Source: a virus. Taken from it: a stretch of DNA of 20,450 bases. The notes beneath the pieces were generated by a model that worked only from the letters and a program-made list of their open reading frames with translations, did not search any database and had not been told where the DNA came from. The position numbers and the translations under genes were made by a program. Position 1 is the stretch's first letter; every line of letters begins with the position of its first letter. Positions 2,944 to 15,475 of the stretch are shown here, piece after piece. The stretch spans positions 1-20,450 of IMG/VR virus record IMGVR_UViG_3300040816_000097. The stretch is one strand, 5' to 3'.

Positions 2944-3617
2944 TGTTCTATCTCCTTGTTGCTATATTCTTTTGGGTCTTTATCTGTAACAATGACTCTT
3001 GACTTCTTACCTAAACTTTTAATTCGATTCTTAAATCGAATAGCATTCTTTGCTTTGTCTCTGTCTAACCAGAGATGTATGTTATCAAACTGTTCTGTTA
3101 ATTTATGTTGCCATTCCAGAGGGAGACTGCTCCCCAACAAAGGGGCGGAGCAGTAACCCGATATTCTACTTACTTTAATTGCTGATAAAATATCTTCTAC
3201 TAATATTATTGTATCACCCTCTCCATAAATTGTCAAGGGTTTAAGTCCATTAGATAAATACTTAGGACCAATGTTTCTAAACGATCTACTTTGCCAATAT
3301 GATCCTGTGTTTAGTAGCACAAGAGTACCGTTATCTTCACACCATTCCATGTTATATTTTACTATCTCTTCTAAGGAGATACCGTAAGATAGCAACCATT
3401 TCATAGCAGATTGTGGAAGATCTTTAGTTGTATGTAGCAGACTTGTGGTTACATTACTGGGGCTTTTTGCCCTGTTAATTCTTGTTCGTAATGTATTAAG
3501 ATCATCTTTTACTTTGTAGTATTGACAACCAAAACAATAGTAATGGTCGTCATACTCACCTAGATTGTCTTTACTGCCACACTTAGGACAAGGTATATGT
3601 TTTAAAAACTTAGTCAT
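2925..3617 (-). CDS. DNA primase (zinc ribbon plus TOPRIM, T7 gp4 N-terminal type)
   Basis: Makes RNA primers on the lagging strand. 230 aa. Seen: an N-terminal zinc ribbon HIPCPKCGS with C10/C13 and YYCFGCQ with C28/C31, matching the template-recognition ribbon of T7 gp4. A linker and RNA-polymerase-like part follow. The TOPRIM fold shows TIILVEDILSAIKVS (catalytic E141) and HLWLDRDKAK (D185, D187). The final DKDPKEYS resembles the family's third acidic strand. It starts ATG 3617, 8 nt inside the end of the 97-aa gene, and its last 19 nt overlap the helicase start. The enzyme is physically separate from the helicase, unlike T7 gp4. Activity is likely, as all metal-binding residues are present. 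Confidence 0.9.
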   Translation of the reverse strand: MTKFLKHIPCPKCGSKDNLGEYDDHYYCFGCQYYKVKDDLNTLRTRINRAKSPSNVTTSLLHTTKDLPQSAMKWLLSYGISLEEIVKYNMEWCEDNGTLVLLNTGSYWQSRSFRNIGPKYLSNGLKPLTIYGEGDTIILVEDILSAIKVSRISGYCSAPLLGSSLPLEWQHKLTEQFDNIHLWLDRDKAKNAIRFKNRIKSLGKKSRVIVTDKDPKEYSNKEIEQWLKNK

Positions 3618-3903
3618 AAAATGTTAATTCTTTTTCTGGATTAAAACAATCTTTGTTTAATTCTTTAACTAACTTAGTAAGTGTTTCATATGTATACCAT
3701 TCATTACCACCTACAAATTTCCATTTCTTTTTAGGTGTTATAATATATACATCATTAACTATAAATCCCCAACGACAAGGTCGTATATTGTCTGATTGAA
3801 ATTGATTTTGTAATGTTTTAAAACATTGAAACCATTTAGATTTAGTAAAGTTATTAGCTTCCCAATGCCAAGGTCTTTTAACAAATTTAAATTTTCTTTT
3901 CAT
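3610..3903 (-). CDS. Hypothetical 97-aa basic protein, first gene of the replication operon
   Basis: Not recognised. A longer open frame reaches 3984, but the ATG at 3903 is preferred: AAGGAT lies 6 nt upstream, and the sigma70 promoter at 3922-3950 would place the transcription start near 3915, inside the longer version. The 97-aa protein is rich in Lys, Trp and aromatic residues (MKRKFKFVKRPWHWEANN at the start; KKKWKF around residue 60), with an acidic C-terminus. There is no signal peptide or membrane segment. Its basic, aromatic character and position ahead of the primase, with an 8-nt overlap, would fit a nucleic-acid-binding early protein, but that is only inference from context. Confidence 0.75.
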   Translation of the reverse strand: MKRKFKFVKRPWHWEANNFTKSKWFQCFKTLQNQFQSDNIRPCRWGFIVNDVYIITPKKKWKFVGGNEWYTYETLTKLVKELNKDCFNPEKELTFYD

Positions 3904-3921: not shown

Positions 3922-3950
3922 ATCATACAATATAACAAGACTTTTGTCAA
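3922..3950 (-). promoter_or_regulatory. Sigma70 promoter of the replication operon
   Basis: On the minus strand, TTGACA (3950-3945), a 17-nt spacer and TATGAT (3927-3922). The predicted start is near 3915, followed by the AAGGAT ribosome binding site and ATG at 3903. The -35 is perfect and the -10 matches five of six bases, so host RNA polymerase should use it. It sits back to back with the regulatory DNA of the pqqA-like gene. Confidence 0.75.
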
Positions 3951-3955
3951 TAAAT

Positions 3956-3979
3956 AGTGTATAATATACATTATATACT
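3956..3979. promoter_or_regulatory. Operator-like dyad between divergent transcription units
   Basis: AGTGTATAAT (3956-3965), a 4-nt centre ATAC, then ATTATATACT (3970-3979): 10-bp arms with one mismatch. It is flanked by TTGTCA (3944-3949) and TGACAA (3979-3984), which are also inverted. It overlaps candidate -10 elements on both strands and abuts the -35 of the replication promoter, the right place for a repressor acting on both directions. A plus-strand promoter for the pqqA-like gene is probable here (TTGTCA, 17 nt, TACATT, or one of several TATA-like hexamers), but no single assignment is secure. Confidence 0.5.
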
Positions 3980-4017
3980 GACAATAGTATATAAATTTTA
4001 GACGAAAGGAGACTACT

Positions 4018-4089
4018 ATGTGGACTAAACCATCAGCAACAGAAATGCGCTTCGGCTTTGAAGTCACAATGTACGTATGTAATAAGTAA
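4018..4089 (+). CDS. pqqA: PqqA, pyrroloquinoline quinone precursor peptide
   Basis: 23-residue peptide: starts MWTKP, has Arg11 and Gly13, then the core FEVTMY (14-19) with Glu15 and Tyr19, and ends VCNK. Known: bacterial PqqA peptides such as the 23-aa Klebsiella one start MW-x-KP and carry R11, G13 and E15-V-T-x-Y19; PqqE cross-links that Glu and Tyr, and PQQ is built from them, so PqqA is used up one per cofactor. Length and every key position fit without gaps. AAAGGAGA lies 6 nt before the ATG, a strong ribosome binding site. The gene is on the plus strand, opposite to all neighbours, between the replication promoter and a GC-rich hairpin. GC is 28 of 69 sense bases, with CGC, GGC and GTC codons unlike nearby phage genes, suggesting recent capture from a host. 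No pqqB-E is visible, so processing must be by host enzymes (inference). Confidence 0.9.
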   Translation: MWTKPSATEMRFGFEVTMYVCNK

Positions 4090-4103: not shown

Positions 4104-4124
4104 AGCCCAGCTCATCGCTGGGCT
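4104..4124. terminator. GC-rich hairpin between pqqA and a convergent gene
   Basis: AGCCCAGC (4104-4111), loop TCATC, GCTGGGCT (4117-4124): a perfect 8-bp stem 14 nt after the pqqA stop and 6 nt before the end of the convergent zinc-ribbon gene. Neither side has a T-run, so it is not a textbook intrinsic terminator; it may slow polymerase in both directions or protect the short pqqA mRNA 3' end. Confidence 0.5.
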
Positions 4125-4130
4125 TATGCT

Positions 4131-4346
4131 CTACTCATCATCTAAATCAAAGTCTAATTCGATCCATTCATCATCGTCAAACATTTCATCATCACCTTCA
4201 ATTAAATCAGGACGTTCTTCTACTGCTTGAATGTCAGATTCAACTGAATGATAACAATGATTACATAGATCTAAGTAATGACCTTCACTATCCTTACGGG
4301 TAGATTCAAAGTCATTCAAATTCTTGTTGCAAGCTACGCACCTCAT
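4131..4346 (-). CDS. Small zinc-ribbon protein with acidic tail
   Basis: 71 aa. Seen: MRCVACNKNL (C3, C6) and DLCNHCYHS (C28, C31) form one C-x2-C/C-x2-C zinc site. From about residue 40 the protein is almost purely acidic, ending DFDLDDE. It starts ATG 4346 with AAGGAG 7 nt upstream, and its start overlaps the end of the ribbon-helix-helix gene by 35 nt. Known: short proteins of this form recur in phages, without a proven function. The acidic tail could mimic DNA or contact a basic partner such as an RNA polymerase subunit, but that is speculation. Confidence 0.8.
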   Translation of the reverse strand: MRCVACNKNLNDFESTRKDSEGHYLDLCNHCYHSVESDIQAVEERPDLIEGDDEMFDDDEWIELDFDLDDE

Positions 4347-4529: not shown

Positions 4530-5387
4530 CTAATCCCAATATTCTGCATACTCATCAAGCATTAATTTTGTTGTTGATACATTGTAGAATACAAATGGTT
4601 TTGTAGGATCGTCTGCATCAGTTACAATATCTACTGATCCATCTTTATTACATCCTACAATTTCAACCCACTCACCTACATCTATTACAGATCCTGTAGC
4701 AAAATCTTTAATAGGTTTTATTACTTGACATTGATCTCCTTCTTTAAAAACAGACTGAGCAATCGGCTCGGGAGAGACCGAGTGCGTAAGCTGTTTACTA
4801 TATCTACCCCAGTCATACTTAGTCCATGATGTTTGAACAGGATACTTAGGTGCAGGTTGGTATGATTTATTAGAATACCATACACCATTATCCCACTCAC
4901 CTTTCTCTTCATTAAAGATCTTATGATTACCATGTCGATCAAGCATAATAAGTTTGCTCCAACCAATACGATTCTCAATAAGATCTACAATAGGGTCTTG
5001 AAACAATGCAAGATTACCCCATTTACCTACAAGTTTTTGTAAGATACCTTCATTGAACTGTATAGTATCACTGAATGTATCGTTACCAAAGCCTGTGATT
5101 GTACCATTATGTACAAAGCCCATTGAATTGTTAATATAAAATGGATGACAGTTTGTTTCATCTACTTTGCCATGTGTTTTAATACGGAAGTGGATGACAC
5201 ATTTCTTAGCTTCATGTTTCTTGTAAGCTTTGTAAAACTTTTCAAAGTTAAAGAATCCTTTTTGTATCTTAAGTTCTTTATCTTCTGCAAACATAAAGCC
5301 TGCACCATCAGGATTGTTTTGATAACATAAGTTAAGAATTTCTTTCTTAATATGTTTATCTTTTGGTTTATAAATTGCTATGCACAT
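4530..5387 (-). CDS. Class II glutamine amidotransferase (Ntn hydrolase) domain protein
   Basis: 285 aa. Seen: MCIAIYKPK, giving an N-terminal nucleophile Cys2 once Met is removed; NNPDGAGFMF (about 24-33); HFRIKTHG with the glutamine-site Arg; NCHPF; and FVHNGTITGF, the oxyanion Asn-Gly. These are the signatures of the glutaminase domain of GlmS/PurF-type enzymes, which release ammonia from glutamine. There is no synthase domain; the last 85 residues instead look like a small beta-rich module. It starts 10 nt inside the end of the amidoligase gene, with AAGGAG upstream, so the two are coupled. Known: Iyer and co-workers described class II amidotransferases next to GCS/GS-fold amidoligases in phages. 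Here it could feed ammonia to, or hydrolyse an amide made by, its partner (inference). Confidence 0.85.
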   Translation of the reverse strand: MCIAIYKPKDKHIKKEILNLCYQNNPDGAGFMFAEDKELKIQKGFFNFEKFYKAYKKHEAKKCVIHFRIKTHGKVDETNCHPFYINNSMGFVHNGTITGFGNDTFSDTIQFNEGILQKLVGKWGNLALFQDPIVDLIENRIGWSKLIMLDRHGNHKIFNEEKGEWDNGVWYSNKSYQPAPKYPVQTSWTKYDWGRYSKQLTHSVSPEPIAQSVFKEGDQCQVIKPIKDFATGSVIDVGEWVEIVGCNKDGSVDIVTDADDPTKPFVFYNVSTTKLMLDEYAEYWD

Positions 5388-9499: not shown

Positions 9500-10045
9500 A
9501 TGAAAACATTTAATAGTCTCAACTTAAAAGACGACTTAGGTCGTTATCGCACTCAATCCCTTTTCTGGGAACTAAGGCATGGGGTGGATACTAACAAGTA
9601 TCCCCCTGTCTTTACGACCAAGGATGAGGATATAGAACGTGATGGTGTTAAGTATGTTTCTATGAAGAAACTATACATGGCATATGATCACATTCCAGGA
9701 TATGAATACGAGTTTGCTATGGAGGTTCTAGGATCATGGGATCACTGGAATAAATTAGCTAACGACACAATACCAGACATCAAGAACATGATACAGGGTT
9801 GGAGAGATGAATTAGATATTCGTCTGAAAGCTCATGGACTTAAAGCTTTGATACACGCATCTAGAGATAACGATGCGAAGGGAGTACAAGCTTCTAAGTA
9901 TCTCGTAGAGAAAGGATATATTCAGAAGAGGGGTAGACCTTCTAAAGAAGAAGTAGATAGAGAACTTAAAGCCAATACTAAACTTAAAAAAGAATTTGAA
10001 TCAGACCTTGAACGTATAGGTCTTAAAGTCGTAGGAGACAAATAG
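9500..10045 (+). CDS. Probable small terminase subunit / DNA-binding packaging protein
   Basis: 181 aa, first gene of the rightward late block. Seen: a mixed N-terminal half (FWELRHGVDTNKYPP; SMKKLYMAYDHIPGYEYEFA), then a helical segment IRLKAHGLKALIHASRD with a following KYLVEKGYIQKRGRPSKEEV. That last piece joins a helix and a basic GRPSKEEV arm as in many phage small-terminase or packaging proteins; the end is a charged coiled coil. Role: recognise viral DNA and load it on the large terminase. The assignment rests on this C-terminal signature and position, and is uncertain because terminase large lies 7 kb away. It ends at the G that starts the next gene (TAGTG). Confidence 0.5.
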   Translation: MKTFNSLNLKDDLGRYRTQSLFWELRHGVDTNKYPPVFTTKDEDIERDGVKYVSMKKLYMAYDHIPGYEYEFAMEVLGSWDHWNKLANDTIPDIKNMIQGWRDELDIRLKAHGLKALIHASRDNDAKGVQASKYLVEKGYIQKRGRPSKEEVDRELKANTKLKKEFESDLERIGLKVVGDK

Positions 10046-13264: not shown

Positions 13265-13738
13265 ATGAGAGTAATGAATCTTGTACAGTGCAGAGATTTT
13301 GCAATATGTTTTGGAGCAGCAACAGCAAATGATTCTATTGTGCATCCAAACACATTACAAGGCAATACGCAGATGCAGTTTTATCTTGCACATGGATATG
13401 TCAATGTATCTAATGGAGTAGTCAACTATGACTTACCATTAAAAGAATGGTTTGATCTGAGTGAGTTTAAGAATGATAAAAAGATTACTTATTCTACAAA
13501 TGAACAAGGATGTACATGGATAGTAATTCTACCTAAAAATAATACTGATGAATACACAGTTGCTAATGTTACTAGTGGTCAAGTAAATGCTGCTGAAAAC
13601 TCATTTTTATTAATTACTAATGGTGATAAAGTAACAGTTAATGGTGTAAAATTAAGACAGTTTAACTATGTTCCTTTAGATAAAAATGTTATGGTAGAGT
13701 TAAATGGTGGAGAAGTACATAAGTTTACTATTAAATGA
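13265..13738 (+). CDS. Hypothetical 157-aa beta-rich protein
   Basis: ATG 13265 chosen over an upstream ATG at 13232 because GGGGAT precedes it and the upstream residues overlap the previous gene. Seen: N-terminal NLVQCRDFAICFGAATAND, then alternating polar/hydrophobic strands (TWIVILPKN; FLLITNGDKVTVNGVKLRQF) and an end VHKFTIK. A cupin or jelly-roll fold is possible, which would suit its place before three other double-stranded-beta-helix enzymes, but metal ligands are not apparent. Ends with ATGATA overlapping the next gene's ATG. Confidence 0.65.
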   Translation: MRVMNLVQCRDFAICFGAATANDSIVHPNTLQGNTQMQFYLAHGYVNVSNGVVNYDLPLKEWFDLSEFKNDKKITYSTNEQGCTWIVILPKNNTDEYTVANVTSGQVNAAENSFLLITNGDKVTVNGVKLRQFNYVPLDKNVMVELNGGEVHKFTIK

Positions 13739-14295
13739 TAATTAAAAATCTTATACCAAAAGAATTTTGTCAGTATTTTACCCATATACTGCTACGCAAC
13801 ATAGACTTGCAAGAAAAAAAAGAAGACGATCAAGTGCCAAACTCATTAACTCTCATGAGTCATGACATTGTATTTGAAACATTACAAGAACGTTTATGGA
13901 GCAGAATTGAAGGGCATGTAGGTAGACCTTTAATACCAACTTATGCTTATGCAAGATTGTATCAAAATGGAAATGTGTTAGAAAAACATACTGATAGACC
14001 TGCATGTGAAGTCAGTGTTACTTTGCAGTTAGGAAGATCTCATCACTATTCTTATCCTATATATTTAGAAGGTACACGTGTTGATCTTGCAGAAGGCGAT
14101 GGCTTGTTATATAACGGAATAGAACAAGAGCATTGGAGAGATAAATGTGATGGTCCAGAAGGTTATTATTCTGGTCAAGTGTTCTTACATTATGTATATG
14201 CTGATGGTGAGCATGCCTCCGAGATAGGTGATAATAATCATAGAAAAGAATACTCATACATGAAAAACAGAACATTGTTGATGGAAGTAAAATAG
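13735..14295 (+). CDS. 2-oxoglutarate/Fe(II) oxygenase 1 (HWR-QVFLHYV type)
   Basis: 186 aa. Seen: VLEKHTDRPACEVSVTLQLG with the iron ligands H85 and D87; GDGLLYNGIEQEHWRDKC with the distal H133 and adjacent R135; and SGQVFLHYV (146-154). These define the double-stranded beta-helix of 2-oxoglutarate dioxygenases, in a phage-common variant with HWR followed by QVFLHYV. Reaction: O2-dependent hydroxylation of a substrate with decarboxylation of 2-oxoglutarate; the substrate is unknown (protein side chain likely). Overlaps the previous gene by 4 nt. First of three such genes in a row. Confidence 0.85.
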   Translation: MIIKNLIPKEFCQYFTHILLRNIDLQEKKEDDQVPNSLTLMSHDIVFETLQERLWSRIEGHVGRPLIPTYAYARLYQNGNVLEKHTDRPACEVSVTLQLGRSHHYSYPIYLEGTRVDLAEGDGLLYNGIEQEHWRDKCDGPEGYYSGQVFLHYVYADGEHASEIGDNNHRKEYSYMKNRTLLMEVK

Positions 14296-14300
14296 ATTGT

Positions 14301-14897
14301 ATGTTGTTATTGAATCCGAAAAATCATCATGGTATGGAAAGTTATGTGTATTGGGAAGATTTTTTAACTGAAGATGAAATTAGATTTTTAGCTTACCATA
14401 AATCATTTCAATATCCACATACAGCAGAAGTCGGAGGGCAAACCGATGAAAATAAAATTAATTTAAATGTAAGAAGAACGAATGTTGGATGGGTAGATTT
14501 TTCACAAGATCATCAGCATATATGGAATAAAATAGCTAATGTATTTTCGAAAGTAAATAGTCAATTCTTTCATGTAAACATTACAGGGCTGTATGAAGAG
14601 ATGCAGTTAACAGAATATAGTTCAGCTTTTCAAGGTCACTATGACTGGCATATTGATGGTAATATTGCTGATTTGAATATACCTAGAAAGTTATCAATGG
14701 TGTTAATGCTATCTGATCCATGTGAATTTGAAGGTGGTGAATTGCAAGTCAATACTGGTGGTGGAGAAGTTACGTTAGAAATGAAAAAAGGCAGAGCTTG
14801 GTTTTTCCCGTCTTATGTTTTGCATCGAGTCAAGCCTGTAACAAAAGGTATTAGAAAGTCTGCTGTTGTATGGGCAGGTGGAGAGCAGTGGAAATGA
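14301..14897 (+). CDS. 2-oxoglutarate/Fe(II) oxygenase 2 (prolyl-hydroxylase-like)
   Basis: 198 aa. Seen: N-terminal FLTEDEIRFLAYH, then HYDWHIDGN with H117 and D119, RKLSMVLMLSDPCEFEGGEL (129-148), KGRAWFFPSYVLHRVKPV with distal H175, and TKGIRKSAVVW with R185, ten residues after the histidine and so the 2-oxoglutarate-binding arginine. This is the complete HxD...H...R set of PKHD-type hydroxylases, so the enzyme should be active on a protein or peptide. Weak ribosome binding site before ATG 14301; its TGA overlaps the next gene's ATG (ATGA). Confidence 0.9.
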   Translation: MLLLNPKNHHGMESYVYWEDFLTEDEIRFLAYHKSFQYPHTAEVGGQTDENKINLNVRRTNVGWVDFSQDHQHIWNKIANVFSKVNSQFFHVNITGLYEEMQLTEYSSAFQGHYDWHIDGNIADLNIPRKLSMVLMLSDPCEFEGGELQVNTGGGEVTLEMKKGRAWFFPSYVLHRVKPVTKGIRKSAVVWAGGEQWK

Positions 14898-15475
14898 AAT
14901 TAAGCATTATAGAAAAGCCTAATTTAGATTTAGTAGTCATTGATGATTTCTACACACCCGAAGAGTTACATGATGTTAAAAATGAGTTAGTTAGTATTTA
15001 TAAATTTAGAAAGAGACCAGGTCAAACTGGTGATGCTATGAATGGATTTGAACACCAAAAGACTGGGACTGGTGTCTTCTTGCATGAATTATATTATGAT
15101 GCTAATGAATCTTCAATTGTAAATTATAATCAAAAAATATTTACACATCAGTATTTAGATGAGTTGATTGATCGTAGCGTACATTATAAACATATTAGAA
15201 ACTCTACAGTTGATACTGTATTAGTAAACTATTATAATGATAATGAAATGTACAATCAGCATACAGATCTATCATTATTTACTGTAATAATATTACTAGG
15301 TCTAGGGGACTTTAGTGGCGGAGGTATGTATTTTAAAGACATAGACCAGGAAATAGATTTTAAAGAAAACAGGGCTATTATTTTTCCTGGATGTGCTATA
15401 CATCAATCAAGACCAGTGCAAGGCAACGGAACAAGGGTAAGTATTGCTCAATTTATAAACTATGCAGCAAATTAG
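14894..15475 (+). CDS. 2-oxoglutarate/Fe(II) oxygenase 3
   Basis: 193 aa from ATG 14894, chosen over an upstream ATG at 14870 because GGAGAG precedes it and it gives a 4-nt ATGA overlap with the previous stop. Seen: VVIDDFYTPEELHDVKN at the start, MYNQHTDLSLFTVIILLGLG with H123 and D125, SGGGMYF, NRAIIFPGCAIHQSRPV with distal H170, and GTRVSIAQF with R181. All iron and 2-oxoglutarate ligands are present. It shares only the core with oxygenases 1 and 2, so the three are not recent duplicates and may have different substrates. Confidence 0.9.
   Translation: MKLSIIEKPNLDLVVIDDFYTPEELHDVKNELVSIYKFRKRPGQTGDAMNGFEHQKTGTGVFLHELYYDANESSIVNYNQKIFTHQYLDELIDRSVHYKHIRNSTVDTVLVNYYNDNEMYNQHTDLSLFTVIILLGLGDFSGGGMYFKDIDQEIDFKENRAIIFPGCAIHQSRPVQGNGTRVSIAQFINYAAN

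Follow-up and report, generated by a model that had tools for sequence, protein, structure and literature searches.

A 23-codon pqqA gene in a podovirus-type phage and its probable role in phages of methylotrophic bacteria

The pqqA reading frame and the phage that carries it

Why should a virus carry a gene for a 23-residue peptide that looks like PqqA, the precursor of the cofactor PQQ, when PqqA is consumed one-for-one in PQQ synthesis? The window analysed here, a stretch of 20,450 nucleotides from an IMG/VR virus record, raises this question through a single short reading frame, which an earlier note had read as a full-length PqqA with its own ribosome-binding site, running opposite to its neighbours. 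The features of the locus are as follows.

4018..4089, plus strand: pqqA, 23 codons, encoding the PQQ precursor peptide PqqA; over the cut-offs of TIGR02107 and PF08042
4005..4011, plus strand: ribosome-binding site AAAGGAG, 6 nt upstream of the ATG, read in the sequence
4104..4124, plus strand: hairpin AGCCCAGC-TCATC-GCTGGGCT, 14 nt past the pqqA stop, with no T-rich tail, from folding
3944..3972, plus strand: candidate pqqA promoter TTGTCA-17-TACATT, 9/12, weak, not above shuffle expectation
3922..3950, minus strand: promoter-like TTGACA-17-TATGAT, strong, 11/12, facing the leftward gene at 3610-3903 and not part of pqqA

The translation of 4018-4089 is MWTKPSATEMRFGFEVTMYVCNK, 23 aa followed by a stop. 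It matches the Pfam PqqA profile PF08042 with 43.3 bits (cut-off 21.1, E 3.2e-11) over 19 of 19 profile positions and the NCBIfam equivalog TIGR02107 with 44.7 bits (cut-off 20, E 7.9e-12) over 21 of 21. When the whole record was searched in six frames with the HMM, this reading frame was the sole match (E 2.6e-12), and the same PqqA search gave no match in control genomes. The full-length scores against both profiles, together with this single match, exclude a chance resemblance. The peptide has E15 and Y19, three residues apart in an E-V/I-T-x-Y motif, which are presumably the residues that PqqE cross-links. Judged from its sequence, the reading frame is a genuine PqqA, as the earlier note had proposed, and the other two parts of that description also hold: AAAGGAG is present at 4005-4011, and the nearest plausible genes, at 3610-3903 and 4131-4346, both lie on the minus strand. 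A search of the PDB for a solved PqqA-like chain gave no hit, and no family in PHROGs matched the window peptide.

The window also encodes a family A DNA polymerase, a DnaB-like helicase and a head-tail connector, as a true phage does. Its terminase-portal DNA is 76-77% identical to that of MEP401 and MEP402, phages of OM43 strain FZCC0133, and on the strength of this identity its host is very likely a member of the Methylophilales. The window virus is best described as a podovirus-type phage with pqqA as a self-contained one-gene unit. In MEP402, pqqA lies immediately upstream of gp69, a homologue of the window gene at 9500-10045 (62% identity), and the sole copy in the window lies 5.5 kb from that gene, so the position of pqqA varies even between related phages. 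Elsewhere in the window, three plus-strand ORFs in series at 13735-15475 (186, 198 and 201 aa) have matches among the PHROG moron families, ‘ferrochelatase’ families for the first and 2OG-Fe(II) oxygenase for the other two, a striking cluster given the small genome. On the minus strand, 4530-5387 encodes a 285-aa protein with weak similarity to class-II glutamine amidotransferases, and its DNA is 67-70% identical to MEP401/402.

The signals around pqqA recur across viral copies. An SD-like core lies upstream of 141 of 144 dereplicated viral copies among the matches listed, compared with 7.7 expected. The 60 nt downstream of the window stop fold with -20.8 kcal/mol, and the hairpin at 4104-4124 is a probable transcription stop or 3' stabiliser; perfect hairpins within 60 nt of the stop were found in 72 of 144 viral copies (again among the matches listed), against 3.3 in shuffles. 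In 41 of 120 cases (34%) the genes on either side of viral pqqA are both antiparallel to it, an arrangement seen for 3% of the ORFs in these loci. Our search for a conserved or clear sigma-70 promoter of viral pqqA gave none convincingly above chance. From the hairpin and antiparallel-neighbour statistics, therefore, viral pqqA appears often to act as its own transcription unit.

Distribution of pqqA among phages and viral contigs

The earlier note had suggested that homologues might be widely overlooked and had proposed looking for PqqA in phage and viral DNA; tblastn, HMM and pattern scans all recovered such homologues. A tblastn search with the window peptide against 50,697 phage records found pqqA in all nine isolates infecting Methylophilales (OM43/LD28) that were met, namely Venkman, MEP301, MEP401, MEP402, P19250A (at 28085-28153) and four Melnitz phages, a set that spans podoviruses to the T4-like Melnitz. 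The other matches were one metagenomic phage (Manatee Spring), two Acinetobacter contigs and one at E 5, and all seven distinct phage records tested passed the PqqA HMM cut-off. Among the 50,697 records, no phage with another stated host had PqqA except for the two Acinetobacter contigs, which are mislabelled. A Pseudomonas-type PqqA query returned the same phage set and a Methylobacterium-type query returned Melnitz only; at this sensitivity, therefore, PqqA does not show up in phages that infect other bacteria with PQQ genes. We rejected ‘Acinetobacter phage MD-2021a’ (CAKLQF020000010.1, 105210-111263) as a pqqA phage, since it looks like a bacterial contig; it carries pqqA with pqqB, C and D, a radical-SAM gene and a polyphosphate kinase gene.

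None of the isolate records annotates the gene, and in the Melnitz and Manatee Spring records an unrelated minus-strand ORF is annotated across it. In Melnitz EXVC044M this opposite-strand ORF, gp152, is probably spurious. The EXVC044M pqqA (76134-76205) begins with MKW and lies just upstream of a tRNA-Leu gene.

Pattern scans of IMG/VR found pqqA on at least 457 distinct viral contigs, which, with the nine isolates, bears out the expectation of widely overlooked homologues. No pqqB-E gene lay beside pqqA in 356 viral loci among the matches listed, in contrast to 35 of 118 genome loci, where pqqB-E adjoined it. Each of the 35 records tested had just one copy of the gene. A search of 36 pqqA records for a PQQ-dependent alcohol dehydrogenase gave no hit, and we accordingly discarded the idea that a phage methanol dehydrogenase accompanies pqqA, as in the Lake Baikal virus discussed below. 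Most viral pqqA contigs are fragments; among 48 long records, Terminase_6N was detectable on the same contig in 25, including contigs of 98 to 356 kb. Clustering the terminases of those records with those of the window and MEP402 gave ten groups at 35% identity and five at 25%. Two IMG/VR contigs, L318 (265,895 bases) and L349 (18,226 bases), encode an alphaproteobacterial-type PqqA (MKWSAPIVQEVCVGMEVTSY...) in DNA of local GC 0.55-0.62. Terminase_6N was sought in both and not found, and the two may come from phages that infect other methylotrophs or may be host DNA filed as viral.

Selection on viral pqqA and its relation to host copies

To avoid circularity, only patterns that fix residues 1-13 and make no demand on residues 14-23 were used to count conservation. 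Among the matches listed, E15, T17 and Y19 are retained in 337 of 338 complete viral copies, so that the loss of E15/Y19 in related phages, which the earlier note had named as evidence against its reading, did not occur. The length is 23 aa in 336 of these 338, one copy being frameshifted (L566) and one 24 aa long. For codons 14-23 of 99 representatives of the first two scans, taken among the matches listed, pN/pS is 0.12, and diversity is 0.40 at third codon positions against 0.11 and 0.07 at the others. Viral pqqA is under purifying selection. The earlier note had also called the gene captured and kept, partly on account of its GC content. That description holds in view of the at least 457 contigs and the low pN/pS, but GC is a weak sign of capture: the ORF has 38.9% GC against 31.8% nearby, and among 72-nt stretches across the window 26% equal or exceed it.

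Putative hosts carry pqqA in abundance. It was present in 80 of 80 Methylophilaceae genomes sampled, in 1-12 copies (median 4), with two or more in 78, and PqqE passed its cut-off in 76 of the 80, normally once. This agrees with the 3-12 pqqA copies and normally single other pqq genes described for the Methylophilaceae (PMC4109929). For the most part, the OM43-type copies examined stand as single-gene units followed by a terminator hairpin, and none of those inspected had an obvious pqqB-E neighbour. At the OM43-type host loci (L373-L391), most pqqA start with MWTTP or MWTQP, not MWTKP, and three OM43-type genomes have two copies about 200 bases apart. Of the 394 viral peptides compared among the matches listed, 153 have exactly the sequence of a fetched host PqqA; at the DNA level, only 7 of the 394 viral copies agree fully with a fetched host copy. 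The longest exact run that the window copy shares with any fetched host copy, counting 60-nt flanks, is 20 nt.

These data bear on the suggestion that viral pqqA is a neutral passenger, either host DNA acquired by chance or host contigs filed as viral. Dispersed, multiple host copies would make pick-up easy, and virus collections do include some misfiled fragments, L318 and L349 with no Terminase_6N among the possible examples. We nevertheless regard this as highly improbable: the nine cultured genomes and the purifying selection already contradict it, and the spread over at least ten terminase lineages, the lack of pqqB-E neighbours and the scarcity of DNA-identical copies among the matches listed all point the same way.

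Retention of the stretch as DNA, for example as an integration site or a recombination anchor, and not for its peptide, is scarcely credible. Short host-gene copies are often found at the attachment sites of phages, which would fit such a role, but here the variation sits at third codon positions, which already contradicts it; furthermore, the shared run with host DNA is short and the position of the gene differs among related phages.

The earlier note had raised the alternative that the peptide is a decoy that occupies PqqD/PqqE and blocks PQQ synthesis. A decoy would have to bind the same enzymes as a substrate, and an overproduced partner can titrate another. However, the reactive residues are kept in all but one of the copies counted above, and the many viral peptides identical to host PqqA should be processed just as the host peptide is. 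We therefore consider a decoy very unlikely.

A further suggestion is that the phage exploits some other role of PqqA, such as lanthanide uptake or signalling by orphan PqqA. PMC11317620 describes orphan pqqA genes of M. extorquens that respond to the form of lanthanide and suggests a part in lanthanide uptake, and OM43 hosts do have orphan pqqA units. Conservation, on the other hand, is centred on the two residues to be cross-linked and on the EVTxY motif around them, as for a PqqE substrate, and we judge such a role unlikely.

Proposed function and comparison with known systems

Phage pqqA is most probably a minimal auxiliary metabolic gene that supplies PQQ substrate and supports the methanol dehydrogenase of the host. 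The phage would make extra PqqA during infection; host PqqD and PqqE would link E15 with Y19, leaving PqqB/PqqC and proteases of the host to complete PQQ, the phage contributing substrate only, at one PqqA spent per PQQ. More PQQ could keep the PQQ-dependent methanol dehydrogenase loaded, so that methanol oxidation might go on giving energy and carbon until lysis, and a replicating phage pqqA would raise gene dosage further at a cost of about 100 bp. The hosts already meet PqqA supply by gene dosage, with many pqqA and normally one pqqE. For another genus, PMC11317620 cites a report (Ge 2015) that PqqA availability was rate-determining for PQQ in Methylovorus MP688; in M. extorquens AM1, pqqA was reported to be dispensable, a test that did not extend to the orphan copies. 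Of the uses of PQQ that the earlier note had listed, methanol oxidation stands and glucose or alcohol oxidation in general does not, because in the context of a Methylophilaceae host the function narrows to the oxidation of methanol.

Taking the distribution and function together, pqqA is probably a near-obligatory micro-gene of the phages of obligate methylotrophs, kept or repeatedly acquired by at least ten terminase lineages and lying below gene-caller length limits, that would reprogram host energy metabolism through a consumable peptide and not an enzyme. Methanol-using OM43 and LD28 bacteria abound in coastal seas and in lakes; should carriage of the PQQ precursor be common among their phages, infection would bear directly on how methanol is turned over, and the supply of PQQ would be a likely bottleneck in the infected cell. 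The usual gene-length cut-off conceals a whole auxiliary gene, one that is unannotated in isolates and has no PHROGs family.

Like other members of the PqqA family (PF08042/TIGR02107), the product of the first gene of bacterial pqqABCDE, the window peptide matches over its whole length, with 23 aa, E15/Y19 and EVTxY; unlike that operon, the window gene sits on a phage genome, alone and without pqqB-E. The window gene also resembles the orphan pqqA genes of the Methylophilaceae (PMC4109929; L373-L391), which are also single-gene units with a ribosome-binding site and a 3' hairpin, away from pqqB-E, and the P19250A peptide is identical to an OM43-type host peptide. The two differ in that the hairpins of host orphan copies mostly end in a T-run, which the window hairpin lacks, and in that OM43-type host copies mostly begin with MWTTP where the window copy begins with MWTKP.

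PqqA has been reported before from Lake Baikal virus population VP_266 (2020), which has a predicted Methylophilaceae host (PMC7678222), and viral PqqA is named in a 2026 list (PMC13188868). VP_266 and the phages described here share methanol oxidation as the proposed purpose, but VP_266 is T4-like and also encodes a methanol dehydrogenase, and PqqA is a single note in that study; here pqqA occurs alone, without a PQQ alcohol dehydrogenase, and in unrelated phages including P19250A. According to the same paper such genes are absent from P19250A, contrary to our finding that this phage encodes PqqA. The OM43 phage papers do not mention PqqA, and in a literature search that covered few subscription journals or bioRxiv preprints, we found no report of pqqA as a common gene of methylotroph phages that stands alone, is under selection and spans unrelated lineages. 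Viral PqqA itself was thus already known; what appears to be new is its near-universal, hidden occurrence in phages of methylotrophs.

Photosynthesis genes of cyanophages, psbA and others, are the classic auxiliary metabolic genes. Like phage pqqA, psbA is host-derived and kept, and sustains the main energy reaction of the host during infection. The difference lies in the product, which is a reaction-centre protein for psbA and a consumed substrate of 23 aa for pqqA.
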